62,493 bases of DNA, from the NCBI GenBank assembly GCA_016282915.1, contig JAEELW010000172.1, forward strand, positions 1 to 62,493. The letters are read 5' to 3'. The translations under genes were made by a program, and so were the position numbers. The notes below the pieces were generated by a model, which ran no database searches, had not been told where the DNA came from, and saw only the letters and a list, made by a program, of their open reading frames with translations. Source of the DNA: Lachnospiraceae bacterium. Its GTDB lineage: Bacteria > Bacillota > Clostridia > Lachnospirales > Lachnospiraceae. Below are positions 42,049-46,005 of this stretch, one piece after another. Position 1 is the first letter of the stretch. The number at the start of each line of letters is the position of its first letter.

Positions 42049-42510
42049 GTGTCGGATGACAAAAAGGACAAAGAGATCCCTTTTTATCTCGGTGAACGCA
42101 TCGTAAAGGAAGAGGAGAAGAAGGAGGACGAAGACAGGCTCCGGATCTCCTACGGCGGCGCCATGCCCGAGCAGCTGGAGAAATACCGGCCGCGGCAGCG
42201 GACCAACGAGGAACTTGCGCAGGCACGCGTCCTGATGCAGAAATATGAGAAAAAGCAGATGCTCAACCGCAGGATCCTTTATCTGGAGCGCCGCCGTCTC
42301 TTTCTCGTCACCAATATGCAGAGCTCTGACCGGCGCAGGCGCGGTAAGGGCTTTTTTTCGCTGTTTTCCAACAAAAAGAGTACAAGATACCATGAATGGG
42401 AACGGGAACTGTGTGAGATCTTTGTGGAGCATGAGCAGCTGGAACGGGAAAAAGCCGAGCTGGTAAAAGAGATCCGCGCGATGGAAAAAAGGGGAGAGAG
42501 CGATGGCTAA
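42049..42510 (+). CDS. Uncharacterised charged coiled-coil protein
   Basis: A 153-residue protein with no hydrophobic helix and very many Glu, Lys and Arg. Residues about 55-100 and 115-150 look like coiled coil around a basic RRRRGKGFFSLF patch. GTG start after GGAGGAA. It overlaps the next gene (GspF-like) by eight bases, so the two are coupled. No known family recognised. Confidence 0.65.
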   Translation: MSDDKKDKEIPFYLGERIVKEEEKKEDEDRLRISYGGAMPEQLEKYRPRQRTNEELAQARVLMQKYEKKQMLNRRILYLERRRLFLVTNMQSSDRRRRGKGFFSLFSNKKSTRYHEWERELCEIFVEHEQLEREKAELVKEIRAMEKRGESDG

Positions 42511-43378
42511 GAACAGGGATCTGGCGATCTTCTGTCAGAAGATGAAGCTGGCACTTCATTCCGGTTTCGATATCGAGCATGCGCTGCTGATCCTTCAGGA
42601 TGAAAAGATCAGGGATCTGGGAGCGGCGCTTAAGCGGACGCATGAGGGCGTGCGGCGTGGCATGCAGCTGAATGCTGCCATGCGGAAGGACGAGGCGGTC
42701 TATACGCCGACCCTGGTGGATATGGTTTATGTAACGGAACAGACCGGGCATATGGAACTTGCCTTTGAGCGCATGGCGAAACGTTTTGAGGATAAGGACA
42801 GCACGAAGCGGAAGCTCATCACTTCGGCGATCTATCCCATCATTGTTGCCCTGGTTTTCCTCATCGCGGTTTTTGCGGTCGCCGCGAGCTGGAAAATAAT
42901 GGGAGTGGCCTACGCTGTCGCGGCCGTTTACGCCATTGTGATCGTTTCGGCATTTTCGTTCTTTCAGGCCGGAAAACAGCTGGGCCGCAGCACCGTGTTC
43001 GGCGGGCAGATCCTGCTGCATATCCCCATTCTCGGAAAAAACATCATGCAGAGCGAACTGGCCGATTTTGCCGGAAATATGGCGGTGTTTTACTCCAGCG
43101 GCGTCGACATAGACAGAGGGATGGAATACAGCATGAAGACGATACGCTATACGCTTCTGAGGGAAAAGATAGCAAAGGCGGCAAAGACCGTGAGAAAAGG
43201 GATACCCTTATCGGATGCACTGCAGATGCAGGGCATCTTTCCGCCGGACCTGATCCACTGTCTGCGTATCGGAGAGAACAGCGGAAATGCGGACGGGATG
43301 CTTCAGAAGATCTCGGAGTATTACAGTACGGATCTACGCAACCGCAGGGAGATACTGATGACTGTGCTGAGGCAGTAA
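42503..43378 (+). CDS. GspF/PilC-like type II secretion F protein, short and alone
   Basis: A 291-residue protein with two F domains: FCQKMKLALHSGFDIEHAL at the start and FAGNMAVFYSSGVDIDRGM in the second half, separated by two membrane helices near 113-160. The final membrane helix that normally closes GspF/PilC is missing; the frame ends in RREILMTVLRQ. No secretion ATPase, prepilin or peptidase is nearby. It may be a relic or work with unlinked partners. Confidence 0.75.
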   Translation: MAKNRDLAIFCQKMKLALHSGFDIEHALLILQDEKIRDLGAALKRTHEGVRRGMQLNAAMRKDEAVYTPTLVDMVYVTEQTGHMELAFERMAKRFEDKDSTKRKLITSAIYPIIVALVFLIAVFAVAASWKIMGVAYAVAAVYAIVIVSAFSFFQAGKQLGRSTVFGGQILLHIPILGKNIMQSELADFAGNMAVFYSSGVDIDRGMEYSMKTIRYTLLREKIAKAAKTVRKGIPLSDALQMQGIFPPDLIHCLRIGENSGNADGMLQKISEYYSTDLRNRREILMTVLRQ

Positions 43379-43571: not shown

Positions 43572-44093
43572 ATGGGATTATTTGATTCTCTTCTCGGTGC
43601 GATAAAAGAAGCCGGAAACACGGTACAGCAGGCCGTGGGAGAGGGCATCCAGAATGTCTGGAGCGAACCGAATCAGAGCGGACCGTATGTTCCGCCGGCG
43701 GCACAGCCGAGTACCGCCCAGCTTAACCAGCAGTATGAGCGGGACGCCCGCAGTTTTGATGAGAAGCTGAATGAGATCCTCCGGGCCTATCCGGATGTAT
43801 CCGTAGACCGGGAGATCCCCGCAGAAGCCTTTGAGCAGCAGGCAGGCTGCCAGATCTTTGCCAGAGGGGGAAACCGCTGTCTGCCGGATCCCTTCAGTTA
43901 CCGGCTCCGGAGAGGCGGAAGGGAATTCTTTATCCGTCTCTGGAAACGTTATGAGTTATATGATCATGCCGCAAACAGGCAGATCCGTGCGTTCTGTGAT
44001 TCGAAAGGAGTTCCGGTGCTGGATTTCTTTGAATATCTGCCCAACGGCTTCGAATACATGCGCATGCGCATTGCCGCTATGCTGGGCGGCTGA
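43572..44093 (+). CDS. Uncharacterised 173-residue protein beside the reverse transcriptase
   Basis: Start behind AAAGGAGGTAGGTC. Residues 1-30 form an amphipathic helix (MGLFDSLLGAIKEAGNTV), then a Pro/Gln-rich linker to about 55, and a C-terminal globular part with CQIFARGGNRCLPDP and FIRLWKRYELYDHAANRQI. No family is recognised. The stop is 19 bases before the long inverted repeat that leads into the reverse transcriptase gene, so it could be the protein partner of that unit or just a neighbour. Confidence 0.6.
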   Translation: MGLFDSLLGAIKEAGNTVQQAVGEGIQNVWSEPNQSGPYVPPAAQPSTAQLNQQYERDARSFDEKLNEILRAYPDVSVDREIPAEAFEQQAGCQIFARGGNRCLPDPFSYRLRRGGREFFIRLWKRYELYDHAANRQIRAFCDSKGVPVLDFFEYLPNGFEYMRMRIAAMLGG

Positions 44094-44111
44094 ACCGTAA
44101 CATTCAACAGT

Positions 44112-44260
44112 AAAAAAAGGAAAGAGAAATGTGACGAAATCACGCCTGCATCGGGTGCAGCGTTCTGCGATACAGGGCTTTGCAGGCAGCAGCAGGGCGT
44201 ATCATCCGGTAGAAACAAGCATGCTTTGTTTCTTTCAAAGTTTTTTCTCTTTCCTTTTTT
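44112..44260 (+). ncRNA. Putative structured RNA with complementary ends upstream of the reverse transcriptase
   Basis: AAAAAAGGAAAGAGAAA (44113-44129) is perfectly complementary to 44244-44260 over 17 bases, closing a 114-base interior. Inside are GTGA/TCAC (44131-44143), a GCCTGCA/TGCAGGC stem (44144-44150 with 44181-44187) holding a GCAG/CTGC hairpin, and an 8-bp AGAAACAA/TTGTTTCT hairpin (44211-44233). The right arm ends 30 bases before the RT start. The layout (ends pairing, hairpins inside, RT gene just after) is that of a retron msr-msd, but the conserved branching-G context is not seen, so the call is provisional. Confidence 0.5.
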
Positions 44261-44290
44261 ATTTTCATTTATGTCCCGGAGAAGGCAAGT

Positions 44291-45478
44291 ATGGATATCA
44301 TTGACAGGATCCTGCGAAAAGAAAGCTGGGAAGAATTTCTGGAGTATAAGAAAAGCCGCGGACATCTGGAACGGGGGGAGGAAACAAGGTGGCGCGCCTT
44401 TATCGATGAAGAGCGCTTCCGGGAACTGCCCGCTGCCGGGGAACTGCCGCTGCCGGTCCGTAAAGAGATCAACAAGAGCGGATCGGATAAGAAACGCATC
44501 ATCTATTCCTATCCCGAGCCCTTTAACAGCATACTCAAAGGGATCGCATTCCAGCTGTATCGCTATGACGGGCTTTTTGAGGACAGCTGTTATGCCTTTC
44601 GGAGGAACAGAAGTGCTGCCGATGCATTGAAGCGCCTGATAATGCTCAACGGGGATGCAAAGCTGTGGTGCCTGAAAGCGGACCTGAGCAATTATTTTAA
44701 TTCCATCGATACCGGGCTGCTCCTGGATAAACTGGAATTTCTGCGTGCCGGGGATGAGCGGCTCTTTCAGCTTTTCCGGGAACTGCTGCTGGAAGATAAG
44801 GTTACGGATGCGGAGGGAAACGTGTTCAGCGACCGGCACGGCGCCATGGCCGGGATCCCGGTCGCCCCTTTTTTTGCCAATGTTTACCTGAACGATCTGG
44901 ACCGGCTTTTTGATAAGGAAAGGTATTTCCGTTATTCCGATGATCTGCTGCTTCTGGCAGACAGCAAAGCTGAGCTTTATGCTTTAAGGGACAGATTGTT
45001 TGCGGCTCTGGAAGAACGACGGCTTAAGCTGAATGAGAAAAAGCTGCATATCCTTGCTCCGGCGGAAGCCGTGGAATACCTCGGTTTCAGTGTATGCGGA
45101 AAGGAAGTGGATCTGTCAGACAGTACAAAGGAAAAACTCAAGGGAAAGATACGCCGCAAGGCCCGGGCTCTGAGGCGCTGGAGTGAAGAAAAAAATCTGC
45201 CGGGCGAACGGGGAGCAAAAGGCTTTATACGTGCGATGAACCGGAAGCTGTTTTCGGCGGAGGGAAAGGAGTTTTCCTGGAGCCGCTGGTTTTTCCCGAT
45301 GCTGACGACGGATAAAAGCCTCAGGGAACTGGACACCTTTATGCAGCAGTATATCCGTTACTGCGTGACCGGCCGCCATTATAAGGGAAATTACCGTATC
45401 CGCTATGAAAGCCTGAAAAGCTGGGGCTACCGCTGCCTCGTTCATGAATGGTGGGCAGGCGGAAAAAACGGGGGATGA
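44291..45478 (+). CDS. Stand-alone reverse transcriptase
   Basis: A 395-residue RT. Motifs in order: KKRIIYSYPEPFNSILKGIA, YAFRRNRSAADALKRL, LKADLSNYFNSID (motif 3, first catalytic Asp), GAMAGIPVAPFFANVYLND (motif 4), RYSDDLLLLA (motif 5, YSDD instead of YADD), KLNEKKLHIL and VEYLGFSV (motifs 6-7). A basic thumb-like C-terminus of about 120 residues follows. There is no maturase X/HNH domain and no NAxxH motif of retron RTs; a VTG tripeptide occurs but far too late. It is therefore neither a clear group II intron, retron nor DGR enzyme. GGAGAAGG precedes the start. Confidence 0.88.
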   Translation: MDIIDRILRKESWEEFLEYKKSRGHLERGEETRWRAFIDEERFRELPAAGELPLPVRKEINKSGSDKKRIIYSYPEPFNSILKGIAFQLYRYDGLFEDSCYAFRRNRSAADALKRLIMLNGDAKLWCLKADLSNYFNSIDTGLLLDKLEFLRAGDERLFQLFRELLLEDKVTDAEGNVFSDRHGAMAGIPVAPFFANVYLNDLDRLFDKERYFRYSDDLLLLADSKAELYALRDRLFAALEERRLKLNEKKLHILAPAEAVEYLGFSVCGKEVDLSDSTKEKLKGKIRRKARALRRWSEEKNLPGERGAKGFIRAMNRKLFSAEGKEFSWSRWFFPMLTTDKSLRELDTFMQQYIRYCVTGRHYKGNYRIRYESLKSWGYRCLVHEWWAGGKNGG

Positions 45479-45898
45479 TCATTTTGTGATCGCCGAGGCG
45501 ATCAGTGCCTGCAGTTCATCGAGTACCTGCTGTACTTCTTCGATGTTCCGGGAGATCGAGACGAGCATCTTTTTTTCTTCATCATCGATGACGCCGTCCC
45601 TGGCGATGGAAACGAGCTGCTTGGAAATGGACTCCATGGACTGTGATGAATTCAGAAAACGGAGTACGACCTTCGCAAGCGCATCGGCATCTTCCAACGG
45701 TGCATCTTCACGGAGCAGATAGTCTGTGGATACATGAAAATGGTCGCTTAAGAAAACGATCATATCCATGGAAGGCTGTGAACTGCCCAGTTCCCATTTG
45801 GATATGGTCTGGCGGCTTACATTCAGTTCCTCGGCGAGAGCTTCCTGGGAGATGCGGTTCTGGCGGCGCAGGTAGATCAGTTTGTCTGCAAAAGTCAT
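45479..45898 (-). CDS. XRE-family transcription regulator
   Basis: A 139-residue regulator: Cro/CI helix-turn-helix at 5-60 (ISQEALAEELNVSRQTISKW) and a helical C-terminal part of about 70 residues with an acidic DDEEKKM turn. ATG 45898 is chosen because GGAGGG lies just upstream. It converges with the RT gene with no spacing at all between stop codons. Target unknown. Confidence 0.88.
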   Translation of the reverse strand: MTFADKLIYLRRQNRISQEALAEELNVSRQTISKWELGSSQPSMDMIVFLSDHFHVSTDYLLREDAPLEDADALAKVVLRFLNSSQSMESISKQLVSIARDGVIDDEEKKMLVSISRNIEEVQQVLDELQALIASAITK

Positions 45899-46005
45899 TT
45901 TAACCCTCCGAAAGAGTAATGTGCCGGCTATGACATCCAAAGGCGGAACTTTATACCGACCTTAACATCATACCGTATAATTCCCAAAAGGAAAAGAGGC
46001 GATGC

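Follow-up and report, generated by a model that had tools for sequence, protein, structure and literature searches.

Within the window, by which we mean the whole 62,493-nucleotide stretch of a Lachnospiraceae bacterium genome analyzed here (contig JAEELW010000172.1), a reverse transcriptase (RT), a structured RNA and a small partner protein form a linked set. Profile scores, rather than an RT tree, assign the RT to UG26, an uncharacterized class of defense RTs, and the core of the RNA matches Rfam family RT-5. We put at about 0.6 the probability that the unit is a ribonucleoprotein of the Class 2 DRT type whose RT copies a short template from the loop following stem-loop SL3. Neither UG26 nor RT-5 had previously been more than a library name, and literature searches on UG26, RT-5/RF03026 and DRT11-14, in a collection lacking most subscription papers, turned up no study of the system. 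New here are the pairing of RT-5 with UG26, a larger RNA fold with a pseudoknot, the trans arrangement of RNA and RT, and the partner family.

Class assignment and structure of the RT

The 395-aa RT (44291..45478, plus strand) matches the PADLOC profile RT_UG26 over residues 1 to 390 with 473.3 bits (E = 1.2e-142), followed at a distance by UG27 (112 bits), UG17 (DRT10; 94 bits) and DRT9 (78.5 bits). All 13 members of set A1 match RT_UG26 and also the next UG classes; at strict cutoffs, UG17 was found in 0 of 148 genomes and UG27 in 0 of 249. The preliminary description of this locus held that the enzyme fits none of the standard classes, a view that gives way to the UG26 score and to the Rfam identity of its RNA. 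The same description had remarked on a YSDD motif and a missing NAxxH motif, the latter being expected in retron RTs. Direct reading upholds the absence of NAxxH, and YSDD occupies residues 215 to 218 and is invariant in 93 of 93 RT homologs. Y372 is likewise present in all 93 and Y380 in 86, and both are candidate priming residues for protein-primed cDNA.

The RT also matches Pfam RVT_1 (E = 8e-23). Its AlphaFold2 model (pLDDT 95.1, pTM 0.91) retrieved group II RTs as the best fold matches, then G2L4, DRT9 (9vma, TMq 0.60) and DRT2, and a sequence-profile search of solved chains again placed group II RTs on top, with DRT9 present and telomerase weakly so. The best matches by sequence and by fold are, then, mostly group II intron RTs, a point against the DRT reading. 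A group II intron was considered and rejected, since the TIGR04416 maturase model reached 108.2 of 300 bits and neither of the window's two Rfam matches is an intron RNA.

Several observations concern individual loci. A convergent HTH gene (45479-45940, minus strand) follows the RT in the window and scores 72.8 bits against an RstR-type repressor model with a cutoff of 80. Locus L014 (genome G235) encodes a more distant UG26-like RT (E = 8.7e-85), possibly of a sister class, and contains tmRNA and tRNA genes and no RT-5. One in-frame stop was reported in the UG26 frames of G299, G300, the second copy of G822 and G878.

A conserved RNA fold with a covarying pseudoknot

The RNA is closed by an outer stem, P1, in which 44113..44129 is the exact 17-bp reverse complement of 44244..44260 across a spacer of 114 nt (plus strand). 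It is the sole exact 17-nt inverted repeat with a 30- to 300-nt spacer in the whole window, and 20 first-order Markov sequences as long as the window contained none. The 197-nt leader before the RT folds at -61.1 kcal/mol (z = -4.0), a stability equaled by 0 of 200 shuffles. The perfect outer pairing that had drawn attention to the locus is thus exact, unique in the window and, as described below, re-paired in other lineages.

The match to Rfam RF03026 (RT-5) spans 44140..44246 on the plus strand (70.1 bits against a gathering score of 45.7; E = 1.1e-11) and is the only one in the genome. It covers the core alone, ends short of P1 and displays neither SL1, which is missing from its structure line, nor the pseudoknot; pseudoknots cannot be shown by a covariance model. 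Inside P1, the fold opens with the SL1 hairpin (GUGA/UCAC; 44131..44143) and continues with the 5' strand of the pseudoknot, GCCUGC (44144..44149). This pairs with GCAGGC (44182..44187) in the apical loop of P2, a long interrupted hairpin (44150..44210) supported by folding and covariation. Next comes SL3 (GAAACAAGCAUGCUUUGUUUC; 44212..44232), a candidate 5' template boundary, whose hairpin is kept at the same place in most RNAs despite changing sequence; in the remaining few, automated detection overlooked it or put it in the wrong position. Between SL3 and the 3' arm of P1 lies a conserved unpaired block, the candidate template loop UUUCAAAGUUU (44233..44243). By the sequence of this loop two RNA subtypes can be told apart: type II, with UUCAAA (77 RNAs, including that of the window), and type I, with UUAA (12 RNAs). 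UUCAAA is near-invariant in type II RNAs and is the most conserved unpaired stretch.

Covariation was assessed in 68 type II RNAs, that is, the 77 minus four partial actinobacterial sequences, four near-duplicates and L048. Across P1, SL1, P2 and the pseudoknot, 93.2% of cells are paired, against at most 53.4% for slid structures, and 34 of 39 pairs have changed on both sides, a result reached in 0 of 500 shuffles. In P1, 93.0% of cells are paired and 9 of 11 pairs show changes on both sides; in SL1, 95.2% are paired and four of four pairs are double-changed. The three helices of P2 are paired in 81.6, 93.8 and 99.0% of cells with many double changes. All 408 of 408 cells of the 6-bp pseudoknot are paired, five of its six pairs are double-changed, and it could be formed in 19 of 19 RNAs of a fresh set (L244-L263) under a permissive search. 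The weak columns are pair 73-161, unpaired in 41 of the 68 RNAs, and pair 78-156, which fails in 29.

P1 also re-pairs beyond this alignment. In 89 RNAs, the stem's own 5' and 3' flanks average -21.1 kcal/mol, against -12.3 for flanks mismatched between divergent RNAs; the own partner beats every divergent partner in 68 of the 89, and mismatched flanks equal or exceed the stability of the true pair in 3.5% of cases. The window P1 is equaled or exceeded by 0 of 26 mismatches and 3 of 2,000 letter shuffles. By sequence comparison, P1 is lineage-specific, yet re-paired across lineages. The preliminary description had proposed a covariation check on the stem and inner hairpins and had named, as grounds against itself, homologs without a conserved upstream structure or a stem changing without compensation. 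The structure proved conserved and the changes compensated, in SL1 and P2 as well as in P1. The pseudoknot and the partner gene go beyond that first reading.

A separate feature was noticed around SL3, whose 3' strand is unusually complementary to the bases after UUCAAA (L074, L106, L061), by up to 7 bp in L074. Compared with mismatched RNAs, this complementarity gave p = 0.0008 in type II and p = 0.03 in type I but was not confirmed in a type I hold-out (p = 0.30), and these bases may perhaps form an alternative hairpin.

Linkage of RNA and RT and action in trans

Comparison of regions upstream of homologous RTs, also proposed earlier, ties the RNA to the enzyme. UG26 RTs occur in 13 of 291 genomes of the same class at E below 1e-138 (119 of the 291 match at E <= 0.001, mostly through other RTs with far weaker scores), and RT-5 lies upstream of the RT in 11 of the 12 other loci in that class. 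When 12 RNAs were used to train a model, it detected the RNA in 88 of 94 sources at E <= 0.01, including 76 of 82 outside the model-building set. The misses are L005, L014 (the more distant RT), L057, L095 (an RT near a contig start) and L101, along with a weak match in L096 (E = 0.39). Among fresh loci of the window's own family, 19 of 20 carry the RNA; three of these loci repeat earlier ones, and the count is 16 of 17 when duplicates are left out.

The most informative set is a family of 115 genomes around G058, where the RNA is present in 80 and the RT in 79: both occur in 79, the RNA alone in one and the RT alone in none. The RT accompanies the RNA in 79 of 80 RNA-positive genomes and is found in 0 of 35 RNA-negative ones. 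In 50 of the 79 co-occurrences the two are adjacent (<400 nt), in 24 they share a strand but are separated by 1.2 to 9.5 kb, and in five they are on different draft contigs. Opposite-strand genes separate RNA and RT in L003 and L005. Because RNA and RT co-occur even when kilobases apart, we conclude that the RNA acts in trans and not as a leader; most likely it is a functional component of the RT enzyme rather than a switch ahead of the RT gene.

Promoter-like sequences differ between the subtypes. A TATAAT-like site precedes 49 of 56 type I RNAs, against a maximum of 30 in 300 shuffles, and these counts fit a free-standing RNA gene. Among type II RNAs the figure is 36 of 94, at the chance level (shuffle mean 34.3), and is not decisive because Bacteroidetes promoters differ. 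We infer that type II RNAs are cut from a transcript that spans partner, RNA and RT.

A partner protein encoded next to the RNA

The RT had been called an orphan, which does not hold: a conserved gene (43572..44093, plus strand) lies directly upstream of the RNA and encodes a 173-aa protein of an unnamed family. In all 84 of 84 placed rows, a homolog of ~170 aa on the RT strand immediately precedes the RNA, although blastp chaining brought a few fused or unrelated ORFs into this set. The partner profile detects the family in 67 of the best 80 loci in named genomes (one weakly) and in 14 of 20 fresh loci. Six of the 291 same-class genomes have it, all of them among the 13 that are UG26 positive (chance 2e-9, for a profile that was itself built from UG26 neighbors). 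The partner is absent beside the RNA in 13 of the best 80 loci, four of which are contig ends; in genus g185 it occurs in 16 of 23 genomes, and in the type I genus g63 in few. Given these absences, the partner is not essential to the unit.

The protein has an N-terminal amphipathic helix (MGLFDSLLGAI...), a linker and a C-terminal domain with a G.P.INF...PNE..Y...R motif. The mean hydrophobic moment of the N terminus is 0.49, against 0.278 when shuffled. N158 is invariant besides Met1, and F152, Y162 and R166 are nearly so. Pfam gave no shared family for 90 partner proteins, with two stray matches to other families and none to SLATT at E <= 0.01. For the window partner, searches of Pfam, PADLOC and NCBIfam gave no family at cutoff, and six partner members reached only E >= 0.048 in PHROGs. 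Fold searches with the structural model (pLDDT 83.9) yielded weak matches only, the best at E = 0.029 and none reaching 0.001, mostly to Holliday-junction resolvases, VRR_NUC, RecU and similar nucleases, which we take to be of the PD-(D/E)XK group. The alignment has no conserved active-site set of D, E and K. These weak nuclease matches, together with the lack of such a set, suggest that the partner is possibly a dead nuclease-like domain carried on a membrane-seeking helix.

Distribution and genomic neighborhood

The best 80 loci in named genomes span Lachnospiraceae, Bacteroidales and actinobacteria of the termite gut. Two UG26 copies per genome were seen in G686 and G822, and single copies elsewhere. 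The actinobacterial units (L070, L071, L073, L086 and L096, from termite-gut MAGs) have GC-rich RNAs in which P1 is re-paired as GGGAGGGGA-type stems, and their sequences suggest transfer between phyla. Searches of plasmids returned 279 records, all less than 60% identical and without a close relative; the best-ranked was 26% identical, and the 25 matches listed were 24 to 26% identical and group II RTs where annotated. Viral contigs in IMG/VR yielded no match in one search and only distant RTs, at most 30% identical, in another, and thus no close relative.

Around the window unit lie RNase J, YceG-like, methyltransferase, U32 peptidase, T2SSF, HIT and other genes, and this housekeeping neighborhood, which contains no defense island, counts against the mechanism proposed below. 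The T2SSF protein (42503-43378, plus strand; 291 aa) is encoded near the unit and has two T2SSF stretches.

A candidate template loop and a proposed mechanism

The position of the conserved loop invites comparison with characterized systems. The template loops of DRT9, DRT10 and DRT3 are described at the same place in the RNA as the loop of the window (PMC12632851, PMC13174585). The DRT10 template follows directly on a stem-loop and lies inside the closing stem, and an A-B-A' arrangement lets the cDNA slip back (PMC12632851).

On this model, the RT would bind the folded RNA, SL3 would bound the template on its 5' side, and the loop at 44233-44243 would be copied, probably repeatedly, into single-stranded cDNA. 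The product predicted from 44233-44247 is a complementary cDNA, single or tandem, of AAACTTTGAAA or CTTTGAAA units. Should repeats of the loop at the P1 arm serve for realignment, the window RNA would specify an 11-nt repeat product, AAACTTTGAAA. Either this cDNA or its disappearance during infection would signal through the partner, in the way suggested for DRT10 and its SLATT protein. Template, priming and product are inferred here, and a role in defense is suggested by the class of the RT.

The possibility of an A-B-A' repeat was examined by pairing left and right loop halves across RNAs, the repeat having first been seen by eye. In the window, the UUUC that opens the P1 3' arm repeats the start of the loop and may be an A', on a weak repeat test. 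Among type I RNAs, 31 of 40 have a match of at least 3 nt, as do 50 of 62 among type II. For type I, the discovery set gave p = 0.019 (n = 12) and two hold-outs gave p = 0.038 (n = 19) and p = 0.25 (n = 13); the pooled p of 0.005 includes the discovery set, and p = 0.017 was obtained even with a decoy offset by 2 nt. For type II, the kind found in the window, the discovery test gave p = 0.66, and the A-A' match showed nothing beyond conserved bases (n = 62, p = 0.82). An A-B-A' template repeat in UG26 RNAs is, on these figures, no more than a possibility, having failed in the larger subtype and in the second type I hold-out.

A bolder version of the model would make UG26 a telomerase-like repeat writer. 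The A-B-A' template, pseudoknot and stem-loop boundary would together yield tandem-repeat single-stranded DNA (AAACTTTGAAA in the window, GCTTTGAAACA in g185), read by a membrane-associated, dead-nuclease-like partner and serving a resident, vertically kept chromosomal function in some genera rather than a mobile defense cassette. The conserved loop at a DRT10-like place, combined with the mixed repeat tests, leads us to favor RNA-templated short cDNA and to regard the telomerase-like version as doubtful.

The unit shares with DRT10 (UG17 RT, SLATT protein and ncRNA) the three-part layout of RNA, RT and small partner and, by position, a template-like loop 3' of the last stem-loop and within the closing stem (PMC12632851). 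It differs in gene order (partner-RNA-RT against RNA-SLATT-RT), in a partner outside the Pfam SLATT families, and in an RNA with a conserved pseudoknot and a weakly supported A-B-A'. DRT9 (UG28 RT and ncRNA), the top-scoring defense RT in the fold search, resembles the unit in that the loop sequence is conserved, as is the template of DRT9; that template is poly-U, whereas the loops here read UUCAAA or UUAA, and the DRT9 RT is ~490 to 500 aa long against ~395 aa for UG26. With Class 2 DRTs in general, the unit shares a dedicated conserved ncRNA and, by position, the succession of SL3, loop and P1 3' arm, in which templating would take place.

Alternative readings

The preliminary description likened P1 to the a1/a2 ends of a retron, with the inner hairpins as msr-msd. 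An RNA with paired ends just ahead of an RT is indeed a retron-like feature, but the retron St85 model NF038233 scores only 45.9 bits against a cutoff of 235, RT_UG26 outscores it by 400 bits, NAxxH is missing and the leader fold contains no long msd-like hairpin. Having failed on both the profile cutoff and the hairpin, the retron was rejected and strikes us as hardly credible; what survives of that description is an RT of the unassigned or DRT kind with a structured RNA of its own. A cis-acting leader (an attenuator, riboregulator or terminator) for the RT, or for the end of the partner transcript, would be in keeping with an RNA between two codirectional genes and with the T-run after P1. 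We consider it very improbable: a pseudoknot and a 114-nt loop are unlike a terminator, opposite-strand genes intervene in L003 and L005, and the 115-genome family, with its 24 distant pairs, its five on separate contigs and its one exception to co-occurrence, led us to reject this reading.

More weight attaches to the main rival, the view that the RNA is an essential structural cofactor and not a template, the DNA made by UG26 being untemplated, protein-templated or copied from another RNA. Strong structure and co-occurrence are silent on templating, and A-B-A' is unsupported in type II. Yet the loop UUCAAA is the most conserved unpaired stretch, and the Class 2 relatives DRT2, DRT9, DRT10 and DRT3a copy their own RNA, according to PMC12632851 and PMC13174585; we judge a purely structural role unlikely. 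In some genera the unit could also be a vertically inherited RT system that serves the biology of the chromosome or the cell surface, a non-defense function that would agree with RNA and RT in 23 of 23 listed g185 genomes, the same downstream neighbor in 22 of them, a median RT dN/dS of 0.065 (from only 9 unsaturated pairs of 136) and the failure to find plasmid or IMG/VR relatives. It is rather unlikely in our estimation, as the unit is patchy in the window's own family (33 of 299 genomes), its loci differ between lineages, and all characterized UG RTs are reported as antiviral in PMC12632851.

Implications

Joining RT, RNA and partner turns two library entries into a defined, clonable unit whose RNA has a covarying pseudoknot and a precisely located candidate template. 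Where RNA and RT are kilobases apart, nature has in effect run a separation experiment, and these genomes show that the RNA acts in trans. Should the loop prove to be a repeat template, UG26 would add to the telomerase-like enzymes of bacteria, and its product could be predicted directly from the RNA. Near-fixation in g185 would challenge the view, expressed in PMC12632851, that all characterized UG enzymes serve in phage defense.
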